Source: a virus
Strand: one strand, 5' to 3'
IMG/VR virus record: IMGVR_UViG_3300002835_000656
Location: 1 to 32,964 of that record
DNA length: 32,964 nt
Shown: in pieces, positions 338 through 17,495 of the stretch
Position numbering within the stretch: position 1 is the first letter of the stretch
How the letters are laid out: each line of letters opens with the position of its first letter
Notes under the pieces: model-generated
What the model saw: the letters and a program-made list of their open reading frames with translations, nothing else
The model's database searches: none
Told to the model about the DNA's origin: nothing
Made by a program: the position numbers and the translations under genes

Positions 338-340
338 CAA

Positions 341-363: not shown

Positions 364-368
364 ACACA

Positions 369-554: not shown

Positions 555-564
555 CCAAAACAAA

Positions 565-1019: not shown

Positions 1020-1021
1020 CC

Positions 1022-1590: not shown

Positions 1591-1595
1591 CTTTG
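1588..1595 (+). promoter_or_regulatory. Candidate -7 promoter element before the recombination genes
   Basis: TAACTTTG matches the Bacteroidota -7 consensus TAnnTTTG and, like the other two candidates upstream, is followed by C. It precedes the ATG at 1612 by 16 nt. No convincing -33 element lies 17-21 nt upstream, so the call is weak. Confidence 0.35.
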
Positions 1596-1611
1596 CACAA
1601 ATCCAAAAACA

Positions 1612-2790: not shown

Positions 2791-3455
2791 GCAACTATAA
2801 CGACTGGATAATGGACAGGTGCGGAAAGATTACTGCATCTGAAATCTATAAGATAATGGGCAAGGGCAGAAACAAAGATGCCTACTTCGGGCAACTGGCT
2901 GAAACCTATATGCTTTCAAAGATAGCCGAGATATTGACACTCGAACCGAACAACGGCGGCAGGGTGAACACGGATGCAATGGACTGGGGCAACGCACACG
3001 AATCAGATGCGGCGGCTGCATTCCAACAGAAGCATCCACACCTTAACCTGCAATACTACGGCATAATGAATCCCAAGTTCTTTGAGTACAACCAATACTG
3101 CGGCGGCAGTCCTGATGGCGTATTCACGGCAGCAACAGGCGACAATGGCATCATTGAAATCAAATGCCCTTACAACTCAACAGAACACGTGCGGCACTTG
3201 CTGATTACAGATGCAGCTTCATTGTTTGACATCGCAACCGAATATTACTGGCAGATGGTCGCTAATATGTTATTCACAGAAACACGCATCGGATACTTCA
3301 TTTCATTCGACCCACGTATGGCACTGGAGCGATTGCAGTTGCACGTTGTACCGATTGAGCCTATTGATGGACATATCGAATTGATAAAGGAACGCATTGC
3401 AGAAGCGAGCAAGTGGATATTAACTAACGTGAACATCTTAAACGACACCTTATGA
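2787..3455 (+). CDS. YqaJ/lambda-exonuclease-like recombination nuclease
   Basis: 222 residues with the motif order of the YqaJ-like viral recombinase family (PD-(D/E)XK fold). These are GKITASEIYKIMG (13-25), WGNAHE (67-72), GGSPDG (106-111, Asp110), the catalytic pair in IIEIKCP (Glu124, Lys126), and YYWQMVANML about 50 residues later. These enzymes degrade one strand of duplex DNA 5' to 3' and make the overhangs used by annealing proteins. The Rad52-like gene three positions upstream is the expected partner. Length is normal for the family. Confidence 0.88.
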   Translation: MSNYNDWIMDRCGKITASEIYKIMGKGRNKDAYFGQLAETYMLSKIAEILTLEPNNGGRVNTDAMDWGNAHESDAAAAFQQKHPHLNLQYYGIMNPKFFEYNQYCGGSPDGVFTAATGDNGIIEIKCPYNSTEHVRHLLITDAASLFDIATEYYWQMVANMLFTETRIGYFISFDPRMALERLQLHVVPIEPIDGHIELIKERIAEASKWILTNVNILNDTL

Positions 3456-3640
3456 AAGACCAGTTAGACTACATTGAAGAACAGCACAACATCGAGATGG
3501 AAGCCTGCCCGATGTGTGACTGCATCGATACAGACTGCGAGTATTGTCACGGCAGTCCTATCTATCCACAGCAAGCAGCAAGCATCAAGAGGATGCTGAA
3601 TGAAGAAGATTACTATTACCCTGAAAATGATATTGTATGA
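3452..3640 (+). CDS. Cysteine-rich small protein, possible zinc ribbon
   Basis: 62 residues with a CPMC...C...CEYCHG arrangement at residues 19-34 (five cysteines plus a histidine), suggesting a small zinc-binding knuckle like a DnaJ-type CxxCxG unit. The C terminus is acidic and tyrosine-rich (EEDYYYPEND). It overlaps the nuclease gene and the next gene by 4 nt each. Zinc binding is inferred from cysteine spacing; the function is unknown. Confidence 0.6.
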   Translation: MKDQLDYIEEQHNIEMEACPMCDCIDTDCEYCHGSPIYPQQAASIKRMLNEEDYYYPENDIV

Positions 3641-4002
3641 TAAAAGGATTTGAGAAACAGACCGAGAAGCTAAATGATGATGAATTAGCCCTTGCACGTA
3701 TTGTGGCGCAGGGGCTATCGAAGAAAACGAAGCACAACCCAGCTTCATCAAGTTACATCTGCGACACGCTGAATGAGAAGTACCCAGACATCAAGCTGAC
3801 CGATGTGCGACTGCGTAAGATAATCAACCACCTGCGGCTGAACGGAATGCCGAACATCTGCGCAAATGGTAAAGGTTACTATGTAAGCGATGATGTACGT
3901 GAGTTGCAGGATTATGCGGTTAGTCTTGGTCAGCGCATCGGAGCGCAGGAAGCGGTGTATAAGTCACTGGTGCATCATATTGAACGGATAATAAAGAAAT
4001 AA
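3637..4002 (+). CDS. Winged-helix-like phage protein, 121 aa
   Basis: The protein has a helix-turn-helix-like region around residues 38-72 (YICDTLNEKYPDIKLTDVRL and RKIINHLRLNG), followed by a beta-hairpin-like ICANGKGYYVSDD, the layout of a winged helix. The C-terminal helix (LQDYAVSLGQRIGAQEAVYK) resembles a conserved stretch of phage early proteins of unknown function. It is co-transcribed with the recombination genes by overlap. A DNA-binding role is plausible, no more. Confidence 0.6.
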   Translation: MIKGFEKQTEKLNDDELALARIVAQGLSKKTKHNPASSSYICDTLNEKYPDIKLTDVRLRKIINHLRLNGMPNICANGKGYYVSDDVRELQDYAVSLGQRIGAQEAVYKSLVHHIERIIKK

Positions 4003-4008
4003 CTCACA

Positions 4009-4230
4009 TTGACAACCTTACAAGGCAATGAAGAACGTGACAAGTATCGTGACAGGATAGTGATGCAGTACCTGAAGTGCGGCGGCAAGTTATATGCAGA
4101 CGATTACTGCGTGTTCGGATTTGATGACAGTTACAATATGCTGCAATACCTAATGAAGCTACAACGTGAGGGCATAGTTCGTGGCAGCATTGATAATAAA
4201 TTTCGCAAGTACTTTGAATTGAAAAAATAA
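4009..4230 (+). CDS. Small winged-helix-like protein, 73 aa (TTG start)
   Basis: The frame opens at TTG 4009, 6 nt after the previous stop. The first in-frame ATG, at about 4063, would lose 18 residues and leave a larger gap, so TTG is preferred. The sequence IVMQYLKCGGKLYADDYCVF and then MLQYLMKLQREGIVRGS resembles a short winged helix. It is the last gene before the leader and terminator at 4213-4339. A candidate promoter overlaps its 3' end. Confidence 0.5.
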   Translation: MTTLQGNEERDKYRDRIVMQYLKCGGKLYADDYCVFGFDDSYNMLQYLMKLQREGIVRGSIDNKFRKYFELKK

Positions 4231-4240
4231 GTTAATTTTG
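4213..4240 (+). promoter_or_regulatory. Candidate promoter for the replication genes
   Basis: TTTG at 4213-4216 and TAATTTTG at 4233-4240 resemble the Bacteroidota -33/-7 pair with a 16-nt spacer, slightly short. As with the early promoter, the -7 box is followed by C. Transcription would start near 4246 and pass through the two hairpins at 4274-4339 before reaching the gene at 4343. Confidence 0.45.
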
Positions 4241-4273
4241 CAGTATGATGAGAACGACATCATTTAAGATATT

Positions 4274-4339
4274 GGTTAAACCTTTAACCCAAACCCAGCA
4301 GCGTAGGTGTTCGTTCCACTGAAACTGTTGGGTTTTTTT
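4274..4339 (+). terminator. Leader hairpins ending in an attenuator-like terminator
   Basis: The first hairpin is the inverted repeat GGTTAAACCTTTAACC (4274-4289). The second pairs AACCCAGCAG (4292-4301) with CTGTTGGGTT (4325-4334), ten pairs with one G-T, and ends in T 4333-4339. It lies between the candidate promoter and the ATG at 4343, so it could be an attenuator for the replication genes or the plain terminator of the early operon. A 25-codon frame (4245-4322, beginning MMRTTSFK) runs through the left arm and stops just before the right arm, the geometry of a leader peptide. Its reality is unproven. Confidence 0.7.
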
Positions 4340-4342
4340 ATT

Positions 4343-5047
4343 ATGAGTAAAGACCCAGCATTTTTATTTTACAGTTCAGATTTTCTGACTGGAACAATGT
4401 TATTTTCAAACGAACAAGTCGGTAAGTATATTCGACTTCTATGTTTGCAACATCAAAAAGGTATACTATCCGAAAAAGATATGTTAAAGATATGTGATAC
4501 ATATGATGAAGATATATGGCGTAAGTTCATAAAAACTGATGCAGGATATTACAATCAGCGACTTCAAGAAGAACAGAAAAAACGTGCTGCATATTCTGAA
4601 AGCAGGCGAAATAATCGAAAAAAGAAAGAAACACAAACAGATATGTCAAACATATCTAAAACATATGTTAAACATATGGAAAATGAAAATGAAAATGAAA
4701 ATATAAATGATAATGAAAATAAAGATAAAAATGGTGTTGAAAAAAAATTCGATGCAAAGGATGCCCTGCTGAAGATGGGTGTCGATTCAAACCTTGCAGA
4801 CGAATGGCTGAAAGTCCGCAAGAACAAACACCTGACCAACACACGTACTGCATTCCTGAAGATATGGCGAGAAATCAAAAAAACAGAACTAACAGCGAAT
4901 GATTGCATCAAGGCAGCAATCGAGCATTCGTGGGGCGGATTTGAAGCCGACTGGCTGACAAACTCTACATTTGCCAAAAAAGGGCATAAAAACGACGAAT
5001 CAAGCCTTACTAACCCCGAAGTGTACAAGAACATCAAATTCACATAA
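4343..5047 (+). CDS. Phage replication initiator/primosome-like protein
   Basis: I start this at ATG 4343 (MSKDPAFLFYSSDFLTGT) because a longer frame upstream would read through the terminator hairpin. The N-terminal 80 residues match the DUF1376-type replication domain of phages (PAFLFYSSDFL, NEQVGKYIRLLCLQHQKG). A Lys/Glu/Asn-rich linker with ENENENEN follows. The last 90 residues (LKVRKNKHLTNTRTAFLKIW, WGGFEADW) resemble the C-terminal domain often found in Bacteroidota phage replication proteins. The DnaC-like loader follows 21 nt later. I infer a role in origin binding or in delivering the host helicase. The first part is visibly more AT-rich than the second. Confidence 0.75.
   Translation: MSKDPAFLFYSSDFLTGTMLFSNEQVGKYIRLLCLQHQKGILSEKDMLKICDTYDEDIWRKFIKTDAGYYNQRLQEEQKKRAAYSESRRNNRKKKETQTDMSNISKTYVKHMENENENENINDNENKDKNGVEKKFDAKDALLKMGVDSNLADEWLKVRKNKHLTNTRTAFLKIWREIKKTELTANDCIKAAIEHSWGGFEADWLTNSTFAKKGHKNDESSLTNPEVYKNIKFT
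4679..4702 (+). repeat. Tandem GAAAAT hexanucleotide repeat in coding sequence
   Basis: Four perfect in-frame copies of GAAAAT encode ENENENEN, with degenerate copies continuing to about 4726. They lie in the linker between the two domains of the replication protein. Copy changes would keep frame and only alter linker length. Confidence 0.7.
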
Positions 5048-5068
5048 TCTTTTAAAATAACCCACTTT

Positions 5069-5812
5069 ATGAACGAAAAAATAGAAAGCTACTTACAGCA
5101 GGAACAAATCAAGCGGCAACAACTACTTGACGACATAAATCTGATTGACCTTACAGATGAAGAATATCAGCTAATCATATTCGACGCAAAAAAGCAAAAA
5201 TATTACAGGCTGAAGTCGGAACAATACCTGCAACAACTAAAGCAGGATGAATGGCACGGATACACGCAATCACGCCTTGCAGAACTATATCTGAAACGAC
5301 TGGCGCAACGTGTGAAGCAGAACAAGCGCAACGACATCAAGGACATCTTCACAGACCTTGCAGGGTATCACCTGAATGGCAGCACTACACTGGACACGAG
5401 CAAGGGCATCCTACTTATTGGCAACATCGGCACTGGAAAGACCATCATTGCATCCTGCGTGCTGAACAACCCGATAGGCAAGTTCGAGATGGTGAACTGC
5501 AATAAGTTGGCGGCGCAGTTCGATGGTCGTTATGATGAGATTGATTATTACACGAAAGAAAATTACTGCGGTGGTTTCCTGTGCTTCGATGACTTGGGTG
5601 ACGAGCGTGAGATTAACCACTACGGCAACCGCATCAACCTAATGTCTGAATTACTGAAAGAGCGATATGTTAACGTGCCGCATAACCGCACTATGGTAAC
5701 GACCAACCTGACACCTGACCAGATTAAGGATAAATACGGCGAGCGTGTATATAGCAGGATGCGTGAGATGTTCAACATCATCCCGATTGCAGGAAGTGAT
5801 TTGAGGCAGTAA
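5069..5812 (+). CDS. DnaC-like helicase loader (AAA+ ATPase)
   Basis: 247 residues. An N-terminal charged, helical region (1-100, many Gln/Lys) would contact the helicase, and a AAA+ core follows. The core has Walker A GNIGTGKT (118-125), Walker B FLCFDDLGDE (170-179, Asp174-Asp175), sensor 1 in MVTTNLTPDQI, and an arginine-finger region GERVYSRMREMFN. DnaC/IstB-type loaders place the replicative helicase at origins. No helicase gene is visible in the window, so it may load the host DnaB or one encoded elsewhere in the phage. It follows the initiator-like gene as in phage replication modules. Confidence 0.88.
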   Translation: MNEKIESYLQQEQIKRQQLLDDINLIDLTDEEYQLIIFDAKKQKYYRLKSEQYLQQLKQDEWHGYTQSRLAELYLKRLAQRVKQNKRNDIKDIFTDLAGYHLNGSTTLDTSKGILLIGNIGTGKTIIASCVLNNPIGKFEMVNCNKLAAQFDGRYDEIDYYTKENYCGGFLCFDDLGDEREINHYGNRINLMSELLKERYVNVPHNRTMVTTNLTPDQIKDKYGERVYSRMREMFNIIPIAGSDLRQ

Positions 5813-5843
5813 CGTTATCGGACTTTGCGAAGTAGCCGAAACG
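5813..5843 (+). other. Imperfect hairpin between loader and methyltransferase genes
   Basis: CGTT (5813-5816) pairs with AACG (5840-5843), CGG (5819-5821) with CCG (5836-5838) and ACTT (5822-5825) with AAGT (5830-5833), around a TGCG loop with small bulges. No T-run follows, so it is not a terminator. It marks the left edge of the AT-rich methyltransferase segment. Confidence 0.45.
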
Positions 5844-5884
5844 AAAAATTAAATCGAAGTACAAAACTTAAAAATTAGAACAAT

Positions 5885-6577
5885 ATGTCAAACGAAGAAC
5901 AAAACGGCTTTTTTGCCAAACCCGTGTTAGCACCAGTACGGGTTCTTAATCTCTATGCTTGTTTAGGAGGCAATAGATTATTATGGGAAAATTGCGAAGT
6001 TACTGCCGTTGAATGGGATGAAGAACTTGCAAAACTATATCAAGAGAGGTTTCCAAATGATAAGGTAATAATTGGCGATGCTCACAAATACTTATTAGAA
6101 CACTTTAAAGAGTTTGATTTTATTTGGAGTTCGCCACCTTGTCCGAGCCATTCAAGAGCAAGATTTGCAAGGCGAAATACAACTACGCCAATTTATCCTG
6201 ATTTGAAGCTGTATGAAGAAATATTGTTTTTAGAAAACTATTATGAGGGCAAATATTGTGTAGAAAATGTAATACCATATTACGAACCATTGATACCTGC
6301 AAAGAAAATCGGAAGGCATTTGTATTGGACAAATTTTAGGTTGCCGAATGATTTAGGAGAACGAAAGCACTCAATTATGGAAAGCAAAGACGAAACTAAA
6401 AAATGGTGCGAATTCCATAATTACGATTTTACTAAATACAAAGGCACTCAACCTGTTCAAAAAATTGCCCGAAATTTAGTTGATTACGAAGCTGGAAAAA
6501 CAATATTTAATATAGCTATGGGAATAATAAACAAACCTAAAACAAGCCAAGAATGTCTATTTGGAAACGAATGGTAG
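5885..6577 (+). CDS. Orphan DNA (cytosine-5)-methyltransferase
   Basis: 230 residues with C5-methyltransferase motifs in order. Motif I is LNLYACLGGNR (21-31, a variant of FxGxGG). Motif IV is SSPPCPSHS with the catalytic Cys86, and motif VI is VENV (126-129). A late AMG segment (NIAMG near 213) resembles motif X. The protein is shorter than bacterial Dcm enzymes (about 300-400 aa), so the target-recognition region, perhaps 140-190, is small. No restriction gene is adjacent, so it is an orphan enzyme, perhaps masking phage DNA from host nucleases. The gene is clearly more AT-rich than both neighbours and is flanked by short non-coding stretches, unlike the overlapping phage genes. This suggests separate acquisition. 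Confidence 0.85.
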   Translation: MSNEEQNGFFAKPVLAPVRVLNLYACLGGNRLLWENCEVTAVEWDEELAKLYQERFPNDKVIIGDAHKYLLEHFKEFDFIWSSPPCPSHSRARFARRNTTTPIYPDLKLYEEILFLENYYEGKYCVENVIPYYEPLIPAKKIGRHLYWTNFRLPNDLGERKHSIMESKDETKKWCEFHNYDFTKYKGTQPVQKIARNLVDYEAGKTIFNIAMGIINKPKTSQECLFGNEW

Positions 6578-6598
6578 TATTGGCACATAACTCACATA

Positions 6599-6628
6599 TT
6601 GGCGCAACTTAAAAAAAACTTACATTCG
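6599..6628 (+). promoter_or_regulatory. Candidate promoter of the secreted protease gene
   Basis: TTG at 6599-6601 and TACATTCG at 6621-6628 (7 of 8 bases fit TAnnTTTG) are separated by 19 nt, the preferred Bacteroidota spacing. Transcription would start about 5 nt before the ATG at 6640. TATTGGC occurs twice just upstream (6578-6584, 6597-6603), the second copy overlapping the -33 element. Confidence 0.4.
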
Positions 6629-6639
6629 CATAAAAAACG

Positions 6640-8889
6640 ATGCGAATCATTACACTTCTACTGCTGATATGCACCTACGTGTCGGCACAAGTTCCGCAGC
6701 TTCAATCGTTGCCGAACAGCACCAATGTTCTATTCCTTGACTTCGATGGCGCAGTAATAAACAACCCGAACTGGAGCGCAAGCACAATCAATGCTGCATC
6801 ATCAGGATTCACCACACAACAGATTCGTGATGTGTTCAATTCTGTTGCGAACTACTATTGGATATTCGACTTGAACGTAACCACAATCGAATCCGTATAT
6901 AACGCAGCACAGACAAGCAAGCGTGGCACTATTGTATTAACGCCAACGGATTCGTGGTATGGCGGTGTCGGCGGTGTTGCCTTTGTCGGCGCGTGGGGAT
7001 GGCAGGCATATCAACCGGGATTTGTATTCACTAAAAACATAACGAGCAACGGACAACCTGACTTCAAGAGCATTGCCAACGCAACAGCACACGAAGCAGG
7101 GCATATGTTGTACCTGAACCATCATTCAGAAAACAACGCACAAGGTCAAGCAGTAGCAGCTTACTATTACGGCAAGGGTGATGGCGAAACATCATTCGCA
7201 CCACAGATGGGCGTGGCATACGGTCGCAATATCGGGGCTTGGGTATGCGGACCAATCAGCGGTCCTTGTGGGTGGCGTATGTCGGGCGGCTTCAATATGC
7301 CGAACTGGCAGGATGACATCGCAGAATTATCACTACAACGTATAGGCGGCAAGGGTTACACGCCGCATCCAAAACTATTATCATTGAAAGCAGACGACAT
7401 CGGAAACACAACAGCAACGGCTAAGAATATCAACATTGTGAACAACGCAGTAAGTGATTCGGGTATGATAGGAATGTCGTTTACAAACACGACTTCATTT
7501 CATTACATAGACAATCCACCTGTAACTATATATGATGAAGATTACTTCAGGTTCACAACTACAACGGCGCAGAACTTCACCATCAACTGCAGACCATTTT
7601 CATTCAGGCAAACGGACAACTGGCAGGCGACAATGGACACAAGGCTAATAATACGCAACGCATCGGGCAACATCATTGCACAGGATTCCAACTTGCAGAA
7701 GTTGTCATCAAGCATAACGCTAATCAATCAGCCAGCAGGCACATACTTTATTCAGGTAGGTTCAGCAGCCAACCCGAATATGAATGCCCCCTGTTACGAC
7801 ACTGACCCGATTGCGAACAGACCACAGAACAAACGCTACAACAGCGTGGGCAGGTATTATATCACAGGCACATTCGCCCCTGCTTCATCCTTACCAGTAG
7901 TGACAATAGGCAACATCAGCACGACTTGTGCAGGGGTGCAGGCTAACATCACCAATCAATCACAGAATGCAACAAGCTATGTGTGGAACTTGGGCAGCGG
8001 CGCAACACCTGCCACATCAACGGCGATAAGTCCGAATGTAACCTATTCAACAGGCGGCACAAAGACTGTGACATTAACGGCGACGAATGTAAACGGCAGC
8101 ACAACGGCGACTAAGAACTTCACCATCACGAACCCGATGCAGGTATCAATCAATGCGCCATCGAGCGTACAGGCAGGCACACCGACCACAATCACAGCCA
8201 ACGCAACAGGCGGCACAGCACCATACACATACAAATGGGCAGGTGGACAGACCACGCAGAGCATCACCATCACGCAGACCGTGACGACATCATACGGCGT
8301 GACCGTTACATCGACGAACGGATGCACTGGCGATGGATTCGTGACCATCAGCATCAGCGTAACGCCACCACCCCCGACTTGCACACAGCCGACCATAACA
8401 GCATCAACAACGTGCCAAGCGGTAACGGTCAGCATTGCACCCAACACGAACTATCAATCCATATCATTCAGCTATGCAGTGAATGGCGGCGCACAGAACA
8501 CGCAGACCTTATCAGCACCATTCACAACCACATTACCGATACAGGCATCGAGCGTAATATTGAGGGCAACGGCAACCTGTACGAATGGCACGAAGTCGGC
8601 GACCAGTGAAATCACATACACCGTGCCTGCCATATCACAAGCACCGCCAGACTTCACCTTGTCATCAAGTGGCGGTAGGTGGACAACTACATTCGTAAAC
8701 AACGGCAGCAAGTTCTACGCAATACGCTTCCGCAATGCAGGCACAACGGCGTGGAGCGAAACGACAACTAATGGCTTAACCATCACACGACCTGCAACAA
8801 TAGGAACGACGATTGAAGTACAATCGCAGTCACGATGCCAGACAGGTTCGGGTGCTTGGTCATCATCTAAAACAATCACAATTCAATAG
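6640..8889 (+). CDS. Secreted metzincin-like metalloprotease with PKD and SprB-type repeats
   Basis: 749 residues. A signal peptide (MRIITLLLLICTYVSA) is followed by a protease domain. That domain begins LFLDFDGAVINN, has WIFDLNVTTIES, and carries the zinc motif HEAGHMLYLNHH. Ligands would be His151, His155 and His161 with catalytic Glu152, as in metzincins, although the usual Gly before the third His is Tyr. Around residues 225-410 is a beta-rich region with a DYFRF segment. Around 420-495 is a PKD-like domain (TSYVWNLGSGA). The next repeat (ATGGTAPYTYKWAGGQTTQS) resembles SprB adhesin repeats. Further Ig-like sequence completes the C terminus, with no obvious type IX sorting domain. Such enzymes are secreted by bacteria, so this is probably phage-borne cargo acting outside the host. 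Codon use resembles the phage genes. Confidence 0.85.
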   Translation: MRIITLLLLICTYVSAQVPQLQSLPNSTNVLFLDFDGAVINNPNWSASTINAASSGFTTQQIRDVFNSVANYYWIFDLNVTTIESVYNAAQTSKRGTIVLTPTDSWYGGVGGVAFVGAWGWQAYQPGFVFTKNITSNGQPDFKSIANATAHEAGHMLYLNHHSENNAQGQAVAAYYYGKGDGETSFAPQMGVAYGRNIGAWVCGPISGPCGWRMSGGFNMPNWQDDIAELSLQRIGGKGYTPHPKLLSLKADDIGNTTATAKNINIVNNAVSDSGMIGMSFTNTTSFHYIDNPPVTIYDEDYFRFTTTTAQNFTINCRPFSFRQTDNWQATMDTRLIIRNASGNIIAQDSNLQKLSSSITLINQPAGTYFIQVGSAANPNMNAPCYDTDPIANRPQNKRYNSVGRYYITGTFAPASSLPVVTIGNISTTCAGVQANITNQSQNATSYVWNLGSGATPATSTAISPNVTYSTGGTKTVTLTATNVNGSTTATKNFTITNPMQVSINAPSSVQAGTPTTITANATGGTAPYTYKWAGGQTTQSITITQTVTTSYGVTVTSTNGCTGDGFVTISISVTPPPPTCTQPTITASTTCQAVTVSIAPNTNYQSISFSYAVNGGAQNTQTLSAPFTTTLPIQASSVILRATATCTNGTKSATSEITYTVPAISQAPPDFTLSSSGGRWTTTFVNNGSKFYAIRFRNAGTTAWSETTTNGLTITRPATIGTTIEVQSQSRCQTGSGAWSSSKTITIQ

Positions 8890-8891
8890 AT

Positions 8892-9287
8892 ATGAAAACA
8901 CTAATTACAATCATACTGACAACGATATGCCTATCATCGGTTGCGCAGATTAAAATGGCGGACAAAATCATCATCAGAGGCAAGTCATTCGACCTGCTAT
9001 CTGAAGCAAAGAACAACGACCTGTTGGACATCGAGTTCCACGATGGCAAGCTATTTACTAAGGCGACCGACTTGGTGATGAACCTGACCTTTGACAGCGA
9101 ATACACACGCAGCTTCACCATTACAGGCTTAACGGTCAAGGCACGCCTGAACATCAACAACAACGGCGATGGTGTCATATCGGGCAACTTGCAGATGGAT
9201 GGCAGCGATGAAGTGTACATCCTTGACAGCTATCAGGGCAAGTACATATTTTTGCGCAAGCCCAAAGAAGTGCTGATACAGGAATGA
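8892..9287 (+). CDS. Small secreted protein, 131 aa
   Basis: A signal peptide (MKTLITIILTTICLSSVAQ) is followed by about 110 residues rich in beta-strand patterns (KIIIRGKSFDLLSEA, NGDGVISGNLQMDGSDEVYI). No family is recognised. It starts 2 nt after the metalloprotease stop, so the two are almost certainly co-expressed and exported together. It might be a partner, inhibitor or substrate of the protease. The stop overlaps the resolvase start by 4 nt, which ties the cargo to the phage operon. Confidence 0.7.
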   Translation: MKTLITIILTTICLSSVAQIKMADKIIIRGKSFDLLSEAKNNDLLDIEFHDGKLFTKATDLVMNLTFDSEYTRSFTITGLTVKARLNINNNGDGVISGNLQMDGSDEVYILDSYQGKYIFLRKPKEVLIQE

Positions 9288-9721
9288 CGATTGACAACAA
9301 CATATTGTATATAGGCATAGACCCCGACATTGACAAGTCTGGGTTATGTGTTTATGACCGATATGCTGAAGATAAGATACAACTATTCACGGCATCATTC
9401 TTTGATGCGTTGCAGACGATTGAAGAGTGGAACAGCAGGCGCAGAACGATTGTAAAGCTTGAAGCAGGGTGGCTGAATAAGAAAAGCAACTGGCACGGCG
9501 GCAAGTCAAACGTGGCGCAGAAAATAGCCAAGAACGTGGGTGAGAATCACGCAGTAGGTAAGTTGATTGAGGTGTACTGCATCCGCAACAACTATCAATG
9601 CCACCTTGTCATCCCTAAGAAGCACAAGGTCAATGCCGAGCAATTCAAACGGCTTACAGGATACGACAAGCGAACGAATCAGGAGGTGCGAGATGCAGCA
9701 ATGTTAGTATATGGCTTATGA
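9284..9721 (+). CDS. RuvC-like Holliday-junction resolvase
   Basis: 145 residues of RNase H-like fold. It has an N-terminal strand with YIGIDPDIDKSGLCVYD (first catalytic Asp13), a second acidic site in VKLEAGW (Glu60), and a C-terminal helix NQEVRDAAMLVYG (Asp137). This is the acidic layout of RuvC-type resolvases. In phages these enzymes cut branched DNA before packaging, which fits the position ahead of the late genes. Third and fourth acidic residues cannot be placed with certainty by eye. Confidence 0.78.
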   Translation: MTIDNNILYIGIDPDIDKSGLCVYDRYAEDKIQLFTASFFDALQTIEEWNSRRRTIVKLEAGWLNKKSNWHGGKSNVAQKIAKNVGENHAVGKLIEVYCIRNNYQCHLVIPKKHKVNAEQFKRLTGYDKRTNQEVRDAAMLVYGL

Positions 9722-11418
9722 CCTTTCACGACTTATATACAGGCAGCGAGTTGTTGAGCATCTGCAAGAAGATAACCAACAACCACGACCTGACAGACGA
9801 CCTATATCAAGAAGTGTTATTGTGCCTGTTGGAGTACGACAAGAATAAACTTGCAGCTATTGAAGCACAAGGGTCGAATAACATCAAGTTCTTTGCAGTT
9901 CGTATTGTGATGACAATGTGGCGCAGTCCACGTTCGACATTCAACTACAAGTACAGGAAGCACCTACACGATGAACTGAATGAAAATATAAATGTGGTTA
10001 CTTTTGATGAAACAAAAACTACAACCTATGACGAAGCAGGCATCCAAGACTACATCCAAGAGCAAGAAAAAAGTTACGGCAGCATCGGCAAGTACCCCTA
10101 CGATGCACGGATATTGCAGCACTATATCGCAGAGGGTTCAATTCGCAAGCTGCACCGAGAGACAGGCATCCCGACATCAGCCATCCACTTCTCGCTAAAG
10201 AAAAGCAAAAGACAAATCAAAGACTATATGAACAACCAACCATACAAGGTGCTGATGCTTCGCAACGTACCTGAATCTGGCGTAGAGTACCACCGATGCC
10301 TTATTCCTGCACACCATATCGCAGACAACTACAAGCACATCGACATCACGCTAATCAACACAATAGACCAAGCGAAAGCAGATTTTTTTAAGAGCTATCA
10401 GTTGTTAGTAATCACAAGGCAGGCATCGAGGTCAATCAACCCTGTACACGTAATCAACACAGCCAAGCAGGCAGGATGCAAAGTGTTGTACGATATTGAC
10501 GATTACTGGGTACTGCCACACGACCACGTTCTATACTATGCATATAACAGAGAAGAATCAAACAGAGTGGTGGACACGATACGAGCGGCAGACTATGTGA
10601 CCACAACGACATCATACCTTGCAGACAAGATAAAGAACTACAACACCAATGTAGAGGTATTGCCGAACGGCATCAATCCAGACCAACCGCAATGGAGCAG
10701 TACGGCAACGGAATCAGACCTTGTGCGTGTCGGATGGCAGGGCGGCATCTGTCATTTGCCTGACATACAGATGATGGCTGATGGGATGGAAAGGCTACAC
10801 GATGACTTGTCAATAAATGGCAAGTATCAGGTTGTGTATGGTGGGTTCAGCAATGGACAAAAGCAGGCATTGCTTATCAACGGCGTGTATGAAGAACGAC
10901 CAATCCAGATTCAGGCGCAGGAATCATACAAATACGAAAAGGTGTTCACAAACAACTACAACTGCCTATCGCCTGACTATGCAGCTGAGTTAAAGAAATA
11001 CGAAACGACCAACATCACGACTAACGAAAAGTACAGGCGTATATGGGGCAAGGACATATACAACTACGGCTACCTATTAGACGAAATGGATGTGTGCCTT
11101 GTGCCGCTTAAGGAGAACGAGTTCAACAAATGCAAGTCGCCGCTTAAACTTGCAGAAGCAGGATTCAAGAAGAAGCCGTGCATCGTATCAAATATCCATC
11201 CCTATCAGCCGCACTACAATGGAAGCAACTACGTGCCAGTTGAACCTAACCGAAGCCATAAAGATTGGTATAAGCAAATCAAGCGAATGATTGAAAGCCC
11301 TGCAATGCGTGAGGACTATGGCAACGCACTATATGAATCGGTCAAGCATAAATTTCACATCGACACCGTAAATAAAAAACGTGTACAGTTATGGAACTTC
11401 ATCGTGAATGGATATTGA
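9718..11418 (+). CDS. Fusion of sigma-70-like domain and GT-B glycosyltransferase
   Basis: 566 residues in one unbroken frame. Residues 1-170 look like a small phage sigma-70-type factor. They have a region-2-like segment NHDLTDDLYQEVLLCLLEYD (23-42) and a region-4-like HTH (GSIRKLHRETGIPTSAIHFS, 141-160), then a basic helix. From about 175 the protein is a GT-B glycosyltransferase (GT4-like). It has YKVLMLRNVPESGVEYHRC, LPNGINPDQ, RVGWQGGICHLPD, DVCLVPLKENEF, and the donor-site motif SPLKLAEAGFKKKPCIVS. An in-frame ATG at 10228 (residue 171), preceded by A-rich sequence, could start a separate 396-aa glycosyltransferase. The start overlaps the resolvase stop. The sigma half might drive late promoters; that is inference. 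Confidence 0.8.
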   Translation: MTFHDLYTGSELLSICKKITNNHDLTDDLYQEVLLCLLEYDKNKLAAIEAQGSNNIKFFAVRIVMTMWRSPRSTFNYKYRKHLHDELNENINVVTFDETKTTTYDEAGIQDYIQEQEKSYGSIGKYPYDARILQHYIAEGSIRKLHRETGIPTSAIHFSLKKSKRQIKDYMNNQPYKVLMLRNVPESGVEYHRCLIPAHHIADNYKHIDITLINTIDQAKADFFKSYQLLVITRQASRSINPVHVINTAKQAGCKVLYDIDDYWVLPHDHVLYYAYNREESNRVVDTIRAADYVTTTTSYLADKIKNYNTNVEVLPNGINPDQPQWSSTATESDLVRVGWQGGICHLPDIQMMADGMERLHDDLSINGKYQVVYGGFSNGQKQALLINGVYEERPIQIQAQESYKYEKVFTNNYNCLSPDYAAELKKYETTNITTNEKYRRIWGKDIYNYGYLLDEMDVCLVPLKENEFNKCKSPLKLAEAGFKKKPCIVSNIHPYQPHYNGSNYVPVEPNRSHKDWYKQIKRMIESPAMREDYGNALYESVKHKFHIDTVNKKRVQLWNFIVNGY

Positions 11419-11654
11419 TATTGTCGCCGTTTATTGCAGCAGCCATCTACCCTGTGAGCAATGTGGTACAGACATTCAAGTGGTTCTTCAACATCAAACG
11501 AATGAAGCCATTTGATTGCACGAAGTGCCTATCGTTTTGGGTATGCCTGACATTGGGCATCATCAACCACGTGTCATTTGAAATATTAATACCTTTGTGC
11601 TTTACATCGATGTTTGCAGGGTATATAATTACAAAATACATCACCAAGCTATGA
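11391..11654 (+). CDS. Conserved phage membrane protein with C-x-x-C motif, 87 aa
   Basis: Two or three hydrophobic segments (ILILSPFIAAAIYPV, FWVCLTLGII, LIPLCFTSMFAGYII) with a central motif KPFDCTKCLSFW. The FxCxxCxxFW pattern is typical of small phage and bacterial membrane proteins of unknown function. The gene overlaps the fusion gene by 28 nt and the next by 4 nt. It sits in the glycan module, where a membrane anchor or transport role is possible but unproven. Confidence 0.65.
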   Translation: MELHREWILILSPFIAAAIYPVSNVVQTFKWFFNIKRMKPFDCTKCLSFWVCLTLGIINHVSFEILIPLCFTSMFAGYIITKYITKL

Positions 11655-11878
11655 ACCAATCACAATACGAAAGACTAAAGGCTGCGTGGACTACATACAA
11701 CACGTGGAAAGTGGCAGGCTTCGTATCGGGCGACAACCAATCTCAGGCAAACCTGATGACGATGCTATCCGTACATATTGAGTTGTTCAATATGCCACCG
11801 CCTGACTTGTCTTGTCCATCTTGCGTACAGGATATGATGAAACGATTATATGAACATTCAAACTACACCTATGAATAA
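11651..11878 (+). CDS. Hypothetical protein, 75 aa, with CPSC pair
   Basis: I choose ATG 11651 (MNQSQYERLKAAW) because it overlaps the preceding stop (ATGA); a longer frame upstream would run deep inside the membrane-protein gene. The protein is helical and ends DLSCPSCVQDMMKRLYEHSN, so one CxxC pair is present. The CxxC followed by a helix resembles small phage proteins of unknown role. It overlaps the glycosyltransferase start by 8 nt. Confidence 0.55.
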   Translation: MNQSQYERLKAAWTTYNTWKVAGFVSGDNQSQANLMTMLSVHIELFNMPPPDLSCPSCVQDMMKRLYEHSNYTYE

Positions 11879-12644
11879 GGCACTGATAGCAATGGCAGTG
11901 TATAATACTGCTGAGAATAAAAAGTTTGAGGTAACGAAGCGCACCATTGATGGTCTAATTAATTCATATGTTCACCATAGACATGACCTATACATTATCG
12001 ATAATGGCTCGCATCATGAAACAATTGATTACATTTTATCACTACCCAAACGAGTAACAAAGATATTTAATGGGGCAAACATCGGAACTGCAAGAGCAAT
12101 CAATAAGGCATGGCAGTTTAGGAAGCAAGGTCAACACGCAATAAAGATGGATGATGATGTAATAATTCATTGTGATAATTGGGTTGAACAGATGATTGAA
12201 GCAATTGATTGTGACCATAACATTGGCATCGTAGGGCTGAAGAGAAAGGATTGTTGGGAGCATCCAAAGCATGAAGAAGAAGATTATAAGTCAACACTTA
12301 TTCAATTGCCACATACACCTGGAAGTCGATGGATAAATGTAGAAGTAGTTAGGCACGTCATAGGAACTTGCCAAATGTATAACTCTGCATTACTGGATAA
12401 GATGGGATTCCTATATCAACCTTCACTCTATGGGTATGATGACGTGATTGCATCGCATAAGTCACAGATAGCAGGGTTCTATAATTGCTTCCTAAACCAC
12501 ATCGACATTGACCACATCGACGAAGGAAATACACCTTATCAGTCATGGAAAGAAAAACATAGCAGCGAAGTGACACAAGAAGTAATTAACTTTGTTCACC
12601 AAATGATAAGAGGTGAACGTGAAATTTATCAACCATTTTACTAA
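11871..12644 (+). CDS. GT-A (family 2-like) glycosyltransferase
   Basis: 257 residues from ATG 11871; a start 21 nt upstream is possible. GT-A features are the first strand ALIAMAVYNT, LYIIDNGS (40-47), NIGTARAINKAW (70-81) and the metal-binding site KMDDDVIIH (Asp94-Asp96). Later come RHVIGTCQMYNSALLDKMGF and a GYDDV acidic site. Such enzymes move sugars from nucleotide donors to acceptors. The gene is more AT-rich than the phage average, as is the next one, so they may have been acquired together. The sugar and acceptor cannot be read from the sequence. Confidence 0.85.
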   Translation: MNKALIAMAVYNTAENKKFEVTKRTIDGLINSYVHHRHDLYIIDNGSHHETIDYILSLPKRVTKIFNGANIGTARAINKAWQFRKQGQHAIKMDDDVIIHCDNWVEQMIEAIDCDHNIGIVGLKRKDCWEHPKHEEEDYKSTLIQLPHTPGSRWINVEVVRHVIGTCQMYNSALLDKMGFLYQPSLYGYDDVIASHKSQIAGFYNCFLNHIDIDHIDEGNTPYQSWKEKHSSEVTQEVINFVHQMIRGEREIYQPFY

Positions 12645-13288
12645 TGATAGTTATAACTAAGATATATACAGAAACACCTTACACTATTCAGATGGTCAAG
12701 TCATTTGAAAAACAAGGATATGAAGTTGCAGTATTGAAAGGACCACACAAAGGAAATGGAGAACTGCTTCGAGAACTTTATGAATGCTACAAGCAAGCAG
12801 CAACAGGTCATAAGACATTCTGTTATTCGGATGGGGCTGATACTTATTGCCAAAAGGCTTTTGATGCACCAAAAGATAAAATAATCTATTCAACAGAAAA
12901 GGCATTGTTCCCTCCACTGGAAGGACTTCAATATCCTGACAAGCCAGTAGTTAACTCAAAATGGAAACATTTGAATGGAGGTGGCGTATGTGGTAGTTTA
13001 GAAGTCATGATTGAATTTATGGAAAAATATGGATTGACAAAACTTACCAATGAAGCAACGGCACAGCTTGAACTTCACTATGCATATTTTGAAACATTAA
13101 AAGATGGCTTTCCATTTGAATTAGATTTTGATTGTAAAATATTTCAATGCATAGCACACATGGAAGAGGGTGACTTTGAATATAAAGATGGGTTGGTCCA
13201 CAACAAAATAACAAAAACAACACCTGCAATTATTCACGCTAATGGAATTACACCCACCCCTAAAGAGTGGGGATTTAAAATTTGGTAA
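12644..13288 (+). CDS. PLOD-type (procollagen galactosyltransferase-like) glycosyltransferase
   Basis: 214 residues with the motif set of the PLOD1-3-like glycosyltransferase domain. It has TKIYTETPYTI at the N terminus, the acidic site YSDGADTY (61-68), the nucleotide-sugar region IIYSTEKALFPP, LNGGGVCGS (110-118), the acidic LDFDCKIFQ, and IIHANGI near the C terminus. In animals this domain glycosylates hydroxylysine; viral and bacterial relatives are mostly uncharacterised. It starts on the last base of the preceding gene's stop codon, so the two are coupled. AT-rich composition matches its partner. Confidence 0.75.
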   Translation: MIVITKIYTETPYTIQMVKSFEKQGYEVAVLKGPHKGNGELLRELYECYKQAATGHKTFCYSDGADTYCQKAFDAPKDKIIYSTEKALFPPLEGLQYPDKPVVNSKWKHLNGGGVCGSLEVMIEFMEKYGLTKLTNEATAQLELHYAYFETLKDGFPFELDFDCKIFQCIAHMEEGDFEYKDGLVHNKITKTTPAIIHANGITPTPKEWGFKIW

Positions 13289-13308
13289 TATGTCATAAAA
13301 GCAAGGCA

Positions 13309-13944
13309 ATGATTTCAATATACGACATCACAGCAGAATTTGAAAGGAAGCTATGCGAGTACACAGGTTCACCATATGCAGTGGCAGTAGATAATCAAAG
13401 CAATGCGTTATTTCTTGCCCTTATGTATGAAAAGCATATGGGTAAGGTAGTCAACAAGACAATCAGCATCCCATCGCACACCTATCCATCAGTGCCTTGT
13501 GCAATCATACATTCAGGCAATAAGGTGAACTTCATACCGAGCGACAGAACATTAACTGGCGAATATCAGCTTATAGGCAGTTCGGTTTGGGATTCAGCAT
13601 TGCGATTTACAGCAGGTATGTATCGAGAACATCAGTATCAATGCTTATCATTTACAGGACCATACAAGCATCTAAAACTTGGCAAGGCAGGGGCGATACT
13701 TACTGACAATTTTTATGCGTATAATTGGTTCAAGCGTGCGAGGTTCAGCGGCAGGGGTGAATGCAGCTACCACGTAGATACATTCGAGATGCTTGGGTGG
13801 AACTTTTATCTGTTACCTGAAATAGCGGCAAAGGGCGTTCGAGATATGCAGCAGTTCTACAACTTGGATGGCACGGCAAAGGAAATGCCAGACATCAGCT
13901 TGCCTTATCCTGATTTGTCTAAATTCGCAGTATATTATGAATAG
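13309..13944 (+). CDS. Shortened DegT/DnrJ/EryC1/StrS-family aminotransferase
   Basis: 211 residues from ATG 13309; a TTG upstream is possible. Sugar-aminotransferase features can be followed in order. They are FERKLCEYTGSPYAVAVDN (11-29), IPSHTYPSVPCAIIHSG (54-70), a PLP-ring Asp in VWDSALRFTAG (Asp95), the probable PLP lysine in LSFTGPYKHLKLGKAGAI (Lys120), and WNFYLLPEIAAKGV, matching the GxNxRxxExxAA segment. Full enzymes have about 370 residues. This one lacks most of the segment between the substrate loop and the PLP Asp, and the whole C-terminal small domain. It may be a minimal enzyme or an inactive relative. The acetyltransferase next door is the usual partner of such enzymes. Confidence 0.72.
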   Translation: MISIYDITAEFERKLCEYTGSPYAVAVDNQSNALFLALMYEKHMGKVVNKTISIPSHTYPSVPCAIIHSGNKVNFIPSDRTLTGEYQLIGSSVWDSALRFTAGMYREHQYQCLSFTGPYKHLKLGKAGAILTDNFYAYNWFKRARFSGRGECSYHVDTFEMLGWNFYLLPEIAAKGVRDMQQFYNLDGTAKEMPDISLPYPDLSKFAVYYE

Positions 13945-14512
13945 CCTTGCGATAGTTGGTTCGGGTGGCTTCGGTCGGGAAGTAGAGCAGTGGGCGAAAT
14001 ATTCGGGGTATAAACACATCGCATTCTACGTAAGCGACAACCTATGCAATGGCGAAATGCCACTATCCACGTTGCCAACAGATATGCCAACGGTGATAGC
14101 AATAGGCAATCCGACCGTTCGTATGCAGTTGGTGAAAGAGATGTCGAGGAATCAGAACTATGACCGCATCATACATAAGACAGCGATAACATCAAGCTAC
14201 AACAATGGAATGATACTATGCCCTTATGCAGTGATAACTACTAACGTAATTGCAGGCAGGCATTTGCATATGAACTTACATTCAGACATCGGTCACGACT
14301 GTGTGATTGGCAATTATGTAACGCTTGCACCAGGCGCACGGGTAAGTGGTTATTGCGTGATAGGTGATTGTGTCTATGTTGGTACAAACGCAGTGATACG
14401 TGAGGGCGTACATATATGCGATGTGGTGACGATAGGCGCAGGGGCGGTGGTGTTGAACGATATAACTGAATCAGGTGTTTACGCAGGAGTACCCGCAAAA
14501 AAAATAAAATAG
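13937..14512 (+). CDS. PglD/NeuD-like sugar N-acetyltransferase
   Basis: 191 residues from ATG 13937, which overlaps the preceding stop; a longer frame upstream is a shadow. The N-terminal nucleotide-sugar domain begins LAIVGSGGFGREVEQWAKYS. The C-terminal half is a left-handed beta helix of hexapeptide repeats (VIGNYVTLAPGARVSGYCVI), ending GVYAGVPAKKIK. The probable catalytic His lies in DIGHDCVIG, as in PglD-type enzymes that acetylate UDP-4-amino sugars. With the aminotransferase it could convert a host 4-keto sugar to an acetamido sugar. The required dehydratase is not in the window. O-acetylation (NeuD-like) is the main alternative. Confidence 0.8.
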   Translation: MNSLAIVGSGGFGREVEQWAKYSGYKHIAFYVSDNLCNGEMPLSTLPTDMPTVIAIGNPTVRMQLVKEMSRNQNYDRIIHKTAITSSYNNGMILCPYAVITTNVIAGRHLHMNLHSDIGHDCVIGNYVTLAPGARVSGYCVIGDCVYVGTNAVIREGVHICDVVTIGAGAVVLNDITESGVYAGVPAKKIK

Positions 14513-14514: not shown

Positions 14515-14958
14515 ATGGCAAAGCATAAATACATCAAGACACCTGAACAACTGTGGGAGTTATTTGAAAAATATCAAGAATCGCTTTCAATATTAAAGAT
14601 ACCGCAGTCGCACGTTAAATTAGGAGTAGTTTATTTAGAAGTTAAAGAGCCAATGACATTTGAGGGATTCGAGTGTTGGCTTGCAGATAATGATATTATT
14701 CAAGATTTAGGTGATTATTCAAAGAATGATGATGGCAGATACGCAAATTATGCCCCCATCATTACACGTATAAGGAAGAATATCTATTCACACAACTTCA
14801 ACCGAGCCGCAGTAGGTCTATACAAAGAGAACTTAATAGCACGGCAATTAGGTATGGCAGATAAGGTGCAAGAATCAGGCGACAAGCAGGTAACCGTTAA
14901 AATAGTTGATGAATCCACAAGTAGTTACAATCCCGACATTACACCAAGCGCAGAATGA
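14515..14958 (+). CDS. terS: Terminase small subunit
   Basis: 147 residues. The N-terminal half has MAKHKYIKTPEQLWELFEKY and TFEGFECWLADND, and the C-terminal half has FNRAAVGLYKENLIARQLGM followed by ADKVQE. This last helix is characteristic of small terminase (gp3-like packaging) proteins of Bacteroidota phages. It would recognise the packaging site and regulate the large subunit. It starts 2 nt after the acetyltransferase gene, linking glycan and packaging genes, and overlaps the large-subunit gene by 50 nt. Confidence 0.8.
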   Translation: MAKHKYIKTPEQLWELFEKYQESLSILKIPQSHVKLGVVYLEVKEPMTFEGFECWLADNDIIQDLGDYSKNDDGRYANYAPIITRIRKNIYSHNFNRAAVGLYKENLIARQLGMADKVQESGDKQVTVKIVDESTSSYNPDITPSAE

Positions 14959-16087
14959 AATCGTAAAGAATAGACGCAGGTTCAATGTAGTTGATTGCGG
15001 CAGGCGATGGGGTAAGTCATACCTTGCAGCACATTTATTGATAATTACATCAGCGAAAAGTAAATATCCGTGTGGTTATTTTACGCCGACATATAAGCTA
15101 CTTGAAAACACATATACGCAGCTGCAAAACTTATTGAAGCCTGCAATATCGAGAAAGCACGACAATCAATTTATCGAACTGATTACTGGTGGGCGCATAG
15201 ACTTCTGGACAATGGACAATCCATATGCAGGTCGCTCACGAAAATATAAAGTAGCCATAGTTGATGAAGCAGCATTTGCGAAGAACTTATGGGAACTATG
15301 GACTGAATCAATCAGACCAACGCTAACCGATTTAAAGGGCAGTGCTTGGTTTTTATCCACACCAAAGGGCAAGAATGACTTTTACAAATTATTCGTTAAA
15401 GGTCAGGGCGACAATGACTGGGCAAGTTGGCAAATGAGTACATACACAAACCCATTCATTGAACCATCCGAAATAGATGCAGCACGTAAAGACCTGCCCG
15501 ACATCGCATTCAATCAAGAATATATGGCTATGTTCAATGAGAATGCAGCCAACCCATTCGGACTTGAACACATACGAAAACAGATACAGCAGAAAGCAGA
15601 TGCCACCAACGTACACTTCTACGGCGTTGACCTTGCTAAGTCGAGCGACTACACCTGCATCGTGGGATTGCATCAGAACGGCAGCATAGCGTACTTCGAG
15701 CGTTTTCAAAAGGACTGGAGCAGCACCACTGCAATACTGAAGATGCTAATCGGCACAACACCTGCATTGATAGATAGCACTGGTGTCGGCGACCCTATTG
15801 TCGAAGAATTGGTCAAAATATGTCCAAATGCAGAGGGGTTCAAGTTCACATCGGAATCGAAGCAGCAGATAATGTTAGAGCTTGCTACATCGGTACAAAA
15901 GCGTGAGGTTTCTATTTTAAGTGGGGTAATGCAAGAAGAAATGGAATCATTCGAGTACACATACAGCGCACGTGGTGTGCGATATTCTGCGCCTGATGGG
16001 ATGCACGATGATACGGTATGCGCCCTTGCACTTGCTAACCATTGCAGGCTAACGAAACAATTAAACAAAGTAACTTTATTCCGATGA
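14909..16087 (+). CDS. terL: Terminase large subunit
   Basis: 392 residues from ATG 14909; a TTG directly upstream is less likely. The ATPase domain has Walker A CGRRWGKS (30-37) and Walker B VAIVDEAAF (Asp119, Glu120), with the coupling motif FLSTPKGKNDFY. The RNase H-like nuclease has acidic sites in FYGVDLAKSSDYTCIVG, ALIDSTGVGDPIVEEL and GMHDDTVCALAL. It packages DNA into proheads and cuts concatemers. It is slightly short for the family but has all the key motifs. Its stop overlaps the next start. Confidence 0.95.
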   Translation: MNPQVVTIPTLHQAQNEIVKNRRRFNVVDCGRRWGKSYLAAHLLIITSAKSKYPCGYFTPTYKLLENTYTQLQNLLKPAISRKHDNQFIELITGGRIDFWTMDNPYAGRSRKYKVAIVDEAAFAKNLWELWTESIRPTLTDLKGSAWFLSTPKGKNDFYKLFVKGQGDNDWASWQMSTYTNPFIEPSEIDAARKDLPDIAFNQEYMAMFNENAANPFGLEHIRKQIQQKADATNVHFYGVDLAKSSDYTCIVGLHQNGSIAYFERFQKDWSSTTAILKMLIGTTPALIDSTGVGDPIVEELVKICPNAEGFKFTSESKQQIMLELATSVQKREVSILSGVMQEEMESFEYTYSARGVRYSAPDGMHDDTVCALALANHCRLTKQLNKVTLFR

Positions 16088-16710
16088 TAAGAATAACCCT
16101 ACCGACAGACTGGAGCGACATCAGCATAGGCAAGTTCCAAGAGATATATGCGATACTGAAGATGCCTGATGGCTTGGTGTTGGAAAAGGACATCAAGATA
16201 CTTGCAGTGCTAACAGGACAGAGTGAAGAAGTAATCGGCAACGTGGATATGGATGACTATGCCTTTATGATGAACAAAATAACATTCATCAATCAGTTCC
16301 CAAGCGCAGACCACATCCCGACGCAGGTCAAGTTCGATGGGGTAAAGTATAACTTGCAGATGAAGATGGAAAAGCTGAAACTTGCGCAGTACATAGATTT
16401 GGAGTTGTTGAGCAAAACGCAGGATGAAATCATATACAACATGCACAAGATACTTGCAATCTTTATGAGCGACAGCAAGACATACAGCACTGAAGATATG
16501 ATAAGGCGAGCCGACATATTCAAGGCGAAGATGACCATTGACGTTGCCTATCCAATCACTGTTTTTTTTTATCTGCACTTCAACGCTTTGTTAAGCGCTA
16601 CACTAAGCTATTTGGTTTCGGAAGCAGACAAACAGACGAAGCAGTTGAAACAAACACTGCCGACAACTACGAGAAGAGATGGAAGTGGTATATTATTTTG
16701 GAAGAACTGA
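16084..16710 (+). CDS. Probable tail-assembly chaperone, frame-0 product
   Basis: 208 residues from ATG 16084, overlapping the terminase stop (ATGA). It begins MIRITLPTDWSDISIGKFQE, has ILAVLTGQSEEVIGNVDMDD, and ends in a basic, low-information tail (KQTLPTTTRRDGSG). The N-terminal half resembles tail-assembly chaperones, which hold the tape measure protein. A run of nine T at 16562-16570 allows a -1 shift into a frame that stays open to 16850, as in lambda G/GT. It lies next to the terminase rather than directly before the tape measure gene (23429), which is unusual. The chaperone assignment rests mainly on the frameshift architecture. Confidence 0.6.
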   Translation: MIRITLPTDWSDISIGKFQEIYAILKMPDGLVLEKDIKILAVLTGQSEEVIGNVDMDDYAFMMNKITFINQFPSADHIPTQVKFDGVKYNLQMKMEKLKLAQYIDLELLSKTQDEIIYNMHKILAIFMSDSKTYSTEDMIRRADIFKAKMTIDVAYPITVFFYLHFNALLSATLSYLVSEADKQTKQLKQTLPTTTRRDGSGILFWKN

Positions 16711-16850
16711 GCAGCGACAGGCGTATGTGGGATTACTATTTCGATATGCAGATAATTGAATTTTTTAATTACTATTCATTCAGGCTTGACAAGGCACGGA
16801 ATGATGAAGCAAAACAAAAGAAGCAATGGCAACAATCCCGAAAGGCATAA
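16084..16850 (+). CDS. Probable -1 frameshift fusion product of the chaperone gene
   Basis: If ribosomes slip -1 at T9, the first 162 residues are joined to 93 residues read from 16569 to the TAA at 16848-16850, giving about 255 aa. The extension is protein-like, rich in Trp, Tyr and Phe (KRWKWYIILEELSSDRRMWD then YYFDMQIIEFFNYYSFRLDK), and ends in a charged helix. It fills an otherwise empty 115-nt gap and overlaps the next start by 25 nt, like other genes here. GT-type fusions are made at low ratio and bridge tail tube and tape measure proteins. Confidence 0.65.
16562..16570 (+). other. T9 slippery sequence for programmed -1 frameshifting
   Basis: Nine consecutive T in codons GTT-TTT-TTT-TAT. 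The heptamer T TTT TTT at 16563-16569 is in the correct phase for simultaneous -1 slippage of two Phe tRNAs. A sequencing error in the homopolymer is the main alternative. Confidence 0.65.
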
Positions 16851-17476
16851 ACAAATTACAAAGAGAAAGGTGGGCGAAGTTCGAGGCAGCCGACATCGGC
16901 ATCACGGACACAAGCGACACGCAGGTAATCATACAAGACAGCATCACGGACATACTAATCAAGTTCATCACAGCCGTAAAAAGTCAGGTGCAAGAGAATC
17001 TGAATGCGACGAGCAAGACAGGGCAGCAGAGCCTATATAACAGCGTGCAGGTGAATGTTGAAGAAACAGGCAACACGGTATCTGTTCAGCTTGTGATGAA
17101 CGACTATTGGAAGTATGTGGACAAGGGCGTGAAAGGTCGCAAGTCAACGTATCCCGAGAGTGCTGATTCGCCGTTCGCCTACCCACAGAAGCCGAAGTCA
17201 AGTGGCGGCAAGTTTCAGAATAGTCTTGAGTTATGGATTGCGCAGAAGCCGATACAGATACGCACAAGCACAACACAATCGGGAGCAGCAGTACGCAACA
17301 TCAACAGCAGCATTGCATACGCTATACGCAACAAGATAATTGACAGAGGTATCAGGGCGACTAACTTCTTCAGCAGCGTAATCAACGACCAGAGCATTGC
17401 GGCATTACGTGAGGAAACCGAGAAGCGACTGGGCAAGAAGTTAGAGATTGCACTGACCACATTCAAACGACAATAA
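16826..17476 (+). CDS. gp10-like neck/tail-completion protein
   Basis: 216 residues. Features shared with HK97 gp10-like proteins are an N-terminal helix, a central YWKYVDKGVKG segment, SLELWIAQKPIQIR, and the C-terminal pattern IAYAIRNKIIDRGIRATNFF. These proteins close the head-tail joint or the tail end. The start overlaps the frameshift extension upstream by 25 nt. It is followed by a 19-nt gap containing the shared TTTCTATTTA box of the next gene. Confidence 0.68.
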   Translation: MATIPKGINKLQRERWAKFEAADIGITDTSDTQVIIQDSITDILIKFITAVKSQVQENLNATSKTGQQSLYNSVQVNVEETGNTVSVQLVMNDYWKYVDKGVKGRKSTYPESADSPFAYPQKPKSSGGKFQNSLELWIAQKPIQIRTSTTQSGAAVRNINSSIAYAIRNKIIDRGIRATNFFSSVINDQSIAALREETEKRLGKKLEIALTTFKRQ

Positions 17477-17480
17477 CTTA

Positions 17481-17490
17481 TTTCTATTTA
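17481..17490 (+). promoter_or_regulatory. Shared start box (TTTCTATTTA), copy 1
   Basis: TTTCTATTTA ends 5 nt before the ATG at 17496. The same box with the same spacing occurs before 23429, 28849 and 32426. It may be a phage late-promoter element or a translation signal. Confidence 0.6.
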
Positions 17491-17495
17491 ACAAT

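Follow-up and report, generated by a model that had tools for sequence, protein, structure and literature searches.

The window, an IMG/VR virus record analysed over its whole length of 32,964 bases, carries on its plus strand an open reading frame whose product joins a predicted sigma factor to a predicted glycosyltransferase (GT) (Table 1). The gene lies after the replication genes and before a sugar cassette and the terminase genes, and it overlaps the genes on both sides, so the locus is a tightly packed operon. Its GT heads a set of sugar genes, as it does in L012, L039, L040 and L052.

Table 1. Features of the fusion locus and its surroundings (positions refer to the window unless a contig is named).
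Feature	Position	Strand	Basis
Holliday-junction-resolvase-like gene; 4-base ATGA overlap (9718-9721) with the fusion start	9284..9721	+	phrog_1770, E 8.5e-19
Sigma-glycosyltransferase fusion ORF, 566 aa	9718..11418	+	ATG start, internal stops: 0
Sigma region 2 domain, residues 1-80, DLxQE motif D28-E32	9718..9957	+	Pfam, AF2, RpoE superposition
Disordered sigma2-sigma4 linker, residues 82-104	9961..10029	+	AF2 pLDDT under 50
Sigma region 4 helix-turn-helix domain, residues 105-172	10030..10233	+	AF2 vs SigR
In-frame ATG, residue 171, candidate start of a 396-aa free GT	10228..10230	+	Start context, junction ATG kept
GT-B glycosyltransferase domain, GT4 type, residues 176-566	10243..11415	+	phrog_7162, Foldseek
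DIDDYW motif, residues 259-264, invariant in the fused family	10492..10509	+	Alignment
C-x7-E stretch, residues 472-480, at the position of the GT4 E-x7-E motif	11131..11157	+	Alignment
87-aa predicted membrane protein (KPFDCxxCLSFW); overlaps the fusion 3' end by 28 bases	11391..11654	+	
Sugar cassette: GT2, GT_PLOD-like, DegT aminotransferase, PglD-like acetyltransferase (swapped cassette)	11850..14512	+	
Swapped cassette, L001	7194-9109		
Swapped cassette, L003	7160-8783		
Swapped cassette, L002	2182-4060		
Terminase small and large subunits, start of the packaging/structural block	14515..16087	+	phrog_606 4.8e-15, phrog_2 2.4e-40

Close relatives differ in the genes that directly follow the fusion, as in a cassette swapped at a fixed site (contents: GT2/PLOD/DegT/PglD, methyltransferase-GT, epimerase, or ParB-methyltransferase). 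The small membrane protein, with the motif KPFDCxxCxxFW, regularly adjoins the sigma gene, whether a GT is present or not (also in L022/L023, L031, L041 and L109). Positions 6640-8889 of the window encode a 749-aa protein with a hydrophobic N-terminus resembling a signal peptide, a reprolysin-like metalloprotease domain (HEAGH, PF13583, E 3.5e-5) and a PKD domain (4e-8), relatives of which stand at the same place in L001, L003 and L004.

The fused frame and its two halves

The initial annotation had described an unbroken 566-codon frame that passes from a sigma-like to a GT4-type half at about residues 170/175, and these limits proved to be right: the frame has no internal stop, and in the AF2 model the last sigma4 helix (153-172) and the first GT strand (176-181) place the domain boundary at residues 172-176. 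The same unbroken fusion is present in L001 (98% identity), in L002, L003 and L004 (75-76%), in L035 and L036 (66-67%), and, at about 34% identity, in L012, L037, L039 and L040. Because these are independent contigs at four levels of identity, the frame is not the product of an assembly error that removed a stop between the halves, an objection raised at the outset. The existence of split relatives might suggest a sequencing error that merged two genes, but the intact frames in the independent contigs already refute this reading, to which we give virtually no credence. Between the window and L001, dN/dS is about 0.10 for the sigma half and 0.04 for the GT half, values that indicate purifying selection on both. 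Homology and fold show that each domain is there in intact form, and the fusion is real and old.

For the N-terminal half, Pfam Sigma70_r2 matches residues 11-39 of the window protein (E 0.0015), with scores that lie under the curated cut-offs (18.7 vs the gathering threshold of 24 bits for Pfam; 19.3 vs 42.9 bits for TIGR02937). Clear matches come from a sigma family of 17 members comprising fused, split and stand-alone relatives, in which the sigma70-ECF profile (TIGR02937) matches 14 members (best 3.6e-7) and Sig70_bacteroi1 reaches 7.6e-9. The family profile has SigW as its best PDB sequence match (E 0.018), in an alignment on D-x-x-Q-E that spans almost the full length, and in a tblastn search the sigma half matched an ECF sigma gene of a faecal contig (9e-5) that adjoins an anti-sigma-like gene. 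The AF2 model of this half (mean pLDDT 72, sigma2 mostly 85-90) passes from a helical sigma2 domain through a disordered linker to a sigma4 helix-turn-helix. Its sigma2 domain superposes on that of RpoE over 76 residues (rmsd 3.4 A) and on that of SigR over 67 (rmsd 3.0), and residues 104-174 superpose on region 4 of SigR (5fgm) over 62 residues (rmsd 2.1 A, Z 7.4). In a Foldseek search with the sigma half the top rows were sigma factors, ECF sigmas first, and no match reached E 0.001; these modest E-values probably result from the flexible placement of the two sigma domains.

The predicted secondary structure leaves no room for a sigma3 domain between sigma2 and sigma4, and the modelled half shows the features of the ECF type: a sigma2 fold with DLxQE, followed directly after the linker by sigma4. 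In known sigma factors the DLxQE motif contacts the beta' coiled coil. Two of its residues, D28 and Q31, are the only invariant positions in the 17-member alignment, and in a wider set of 27, fragments and highly diverged sequences included, 22 members keep D28 and 20 keep Q31. The sigma assignment of the initial annotation is thus borne out by the family profile matches and by the predicted fold, a sigma/helix-turn-helix fold being found in the N-terminal half as modelled, and we regard this half as a divergent ECF-type sigma factor on the strength of profile and model evidence. Weak similarity under the curated cut-offs, a long disordered linker and the divergence of region 2 in some relatives would fit a sigma-derived DNA-binding or scaffold domain that has lost sigma function; against this, the Asp and Gln of DLxQE are precisely the invariant residues and stay frequent in the wider set, and we consider such a loss unlikely. 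A scan of the window found no second sigma-like ORF, the sigma half of the fusion being the only one, and no anti-sigma gene was recognised beside the fusion ORF. That the N-terminal half might be a small terminase was rejected, as a separate terminase small subunit sits at 14515-14958. L166 (2014-2784) and its relatives encode a sigma-like protein of 256 aa whose C-terminal extension is longer; its gene precedes a GT gene by about 0.65 kb.

The C-terminal half matches the phrog_7162 profile with an E-value of 2.2e-49, shares about 27% identity with phi92-like phage relatives, and is predicted to have the GT-B fold. Its best Foldseek match in the PDB is GlgM (8.3e-13), with PimB', BshA and PglA also found, and its best viral structural match is A0A6J5MRG3 (target TM 0.89). 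Cys472, Lys477 and Glu480 are invariant among the fused members, and the position of the first Glu of the GT4 E-x7-E motif is apparently taken by Cys472 in all of them, in a register set by sequence only. Profile and fold together identify this half as a GT-B, GT4-type glycosyltransferase, as the initial annotation had proposed.

Split relatives and the junction ATG

The synteny search that had been suggested for separate halves was carried out and found them (e.g., L041, L042 and L109). Two broad scans and the L109 locus gave 65 non-redundant GT clusters, seven of which are fused to sigma; in 11 a separate sigma gene runs 4-44 bases into the start of the GT gene, in six it lies 0.5-3.7 kb upstream, in 38 no sigma gene was recognised, and three were undecidable. 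Split relatives are L041, L042, L052, L059, L066, L106, L109, L113, L163 and L168; since many of the split pairs were retrieved through the GT alone, the adjoining sigma gene testifies independently to the linkage. Other sigma genes stand alone, with no GT beside them; in L022/L023 the sigma gene is immediately followed by the small membrane-protein gene that the window also has.

In a GT tree built without long branches, the sigma-linked GTs fall into a single clade (100/99), within which three changes are the most parsimonious count for the fused state. A single fused clade, as expected from one ancient fusion, was rejected by the AU test (p-AU 0.0023), so the genes have passed between the split and fused states at least twice, and probably three times. 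The simplest history is that an overlapping sigma-GT pair underwent fusion on more than one occasion, with a history of both fusions and re-splits as a possible alternative; an old pair of overlapping genes has given rise to the fused form recurrently, and not just once.

An in-frame ATG at 10228, after A-rich sequence and exactly at the boundary, had been noted in the initial annotation as a candidate start of a second product. It is present as residue 171, and its start context and conservation speak for that proposal. An ATG occurs within the last 12 codons before the GT strand in 7/7 fused representatives (22% expected per protein). A start-context matrix derived from the genes of the window places ATG 10228 first among the 174 in-frame internal ATGs there; the junction ATGs of the other six fused representatives rank 1/44, 2/26, 6/65, 3/52, 5/82 and 19/57, and the genuine GT starts of split relatives do not outscore the junction ATGs. 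The sequence before ATG 10228 would be A-rich anyway because the last sigma4 helix is lysine-rich; in a Lys/Arg control the window ATG was still first of 29, with L012, L035 and L040 middling. In Flavobacterium, A at -3 and -6 favours initiation, and -12/-13 are also reported positions (PMC6847099); ATG 10228 lacks the A at the first two positions and carries it at -12 and -13. Conservation at synonymous sites before the ATG is mildly raised (rank 23 of 551 windows) and adds little support for an internal start. On this sequence evidence, the locus probably makes both the full-length fusion and a free 396-aa enzyme.

Possible roles and comparison with known systems

We favour, with a probability of about 0.6, the reading that an ECF-like sigma factor has been joined to a GT4 enzyme out of an older overlapping gene pair, and that the locus yields the fusion and probably the free enzyme. 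The sigma half would bind the host core RNA polymerase and redirect it to phage promoters, either of late genes or of the sugar-cassette genes; a switch to later genes is suggested by the position of the gene, the intact sigma domains and the apparent absence of any other sigma-like ORF in the window. The GT half would act as a sugar transferase in the pathway served by the downstream sugar genes and, because it heads that set, would most likely decorate glycans of the virion or of the host surface. The start codon of the ancestral GT would have been kept in frame at 10228, and because of this retention both products are probably made, the free enzyme matching the separate GT of split relatives. 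The covalent link is probably tolerated or a form of expression coupling, and not essential, since separate proteins suffice in most relatives. The most economical explanation of the pattern is expression coupling, or a free product kept from ATG 10228; the tether may also regulate or target.

The promoter scans bear on the proposed switch and on the host. A scan of the window for sigma-70 consensus promoters showed no excess over shuffles, the Bacteroidota-like -7 motif TAnnTTTG, scanned with a trailing C, showed no excess overall, and no phage-specific promoter motif was found. By region, TAnnTTTG occurs seven times on the plus strand of 1-11418 (2.8 expected) and not at all on that of 16400-32964 (5.4 expected); as the minus strand is depleted there too, this pattern favours a switch to another sigma factor only weakly. 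The TAnnTTTG elements at 1588 and 4233 (+) stand just upstream of early genes. L109 is a prophage-like sigma-GT locus in a Bacteroidetes MAG, and from it, the A-rich start contexts and the promoter-like TAnnTTTG sites at a few early genes, we infer that the host probably belongs to the Bacteroidota; in a sample of 395 genomes of the Bacteroidetes phylum no further clear sigma-GT pair was found beyond L109.

At least 26 ECF groups are extended at the N- or C-terminus by parts for which a regulatory role is predicted (PMC8999054), and the GT half might be an extension of this kind that senses a nucleotide sugar and opens or closes the sigma factor, a functional link with which the recurrence of the fused state outside a single clade and the conserved neighbourhood of the two genes would agree. 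However, the two proteins are separate in most relatives, the fused members keep the GT motifs DIDDYW and C-x7-E, and the described extensions (SnoaL, TPR, Cys-rich or anti-sigma-derived) include no GT-B enzymes (PMC8999054). We regard such a sensor as rather unlikely.

The ADP-ribosyltransferases of phage T4 act on RNA polymerase, and by analogy a polymerase-binding sigma half tethered to a transferase would bring the GT to RNA polymerase or promoter DNA, where it could glycosylate the transcription machinery or the phage DNA. The fused gene of L037 is directly preceded by dCMP-deaminase and thymidylate-synthase-like genes (3912-4950), which is in line with such targeting and possibly links that phage to modified bases. 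But the best structural matches of the GT are transferases of small molecules and glycans and not DNA glucosyltransferases, the sugar cassette downstream speaks for glycans, a search of the window recognised no gene for base hydroxylation, and the split relatives have no tether; targeting in this sense seems quite improbable. That the sigma half carries the GT onto polymerase or promoters and so couples sugar transfer physically to transcription, be it for glycosylation of machinery or DNA or for nucleotide-sugar control of the sigma factor, alongside an untethered pool from the internal start, is unlikely as well.

What is new is an ECF-like sigma factor with a new fused enzymatic partner, in phages; a literature search, outside which the main ECF re-classification paper lay, found no sigma-glycosyltransferase fusion. 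The analysis reveals a conserved sigma-glycosyltransferase gene pair in environmental phages that probably infect Bacteroidota. It offers candidate sigma factors for phages about whose transcription programme little is known, and it makes it possible to test whether the switching of phage transcription and the modification of sugars are functionally tied. The locus is also a clean case of a fusion retaining an old start codon, which suggests two products from one gene.

Like the ECF (group 4) sigmas SigW, SigH, SigR and E. coli sigmaE, the sigma half is predicted to have linker-joined sigma2 and sigma4 domains with DLxQE, whereas the fusion is phage-encoded, very divergent and extended by a C-terminal enzyme of 390 aa. 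In ECF41, ECF42, ECF56 and ECF238 an extra C-terminal domain likewise follows sigma2-sigma4 (PMC8999054); there the extensions are SnoaL, TPR or Cys-rich, and here it is apparently a complete GT-B enzyme that is also found free, and thus of none of the types described (SnoaL, TPR, Cys-rich, anti-sigma-derived; PMC8999054). ECF248, exemplified by Indibacter alkaliphilus (Bacteroidota), has glycosyltransferase genes in its conserved neighbourhood (PMC8999054), a likeness by description only; this group is bacterial and is not reported there as fused or overlapping. The phrog_7162 glycosyltransferases, for example those of the gp164/165 region of Escherichia phage phi92, belong to the same GT family as the C-terminal half, and these phage records match that half only, the sigma half having no match there. 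The phage sigma factors of late transcription, T4 gp55 and SPO1 gp28 and gp34, are not known to be fused to enzymes. No late promoter was identified for the fusion phage; like these factors, the fusion would be a phage-encoded specificity factor for the host RNA polymerase, and its gene stands at the boundary between replication and late genes.
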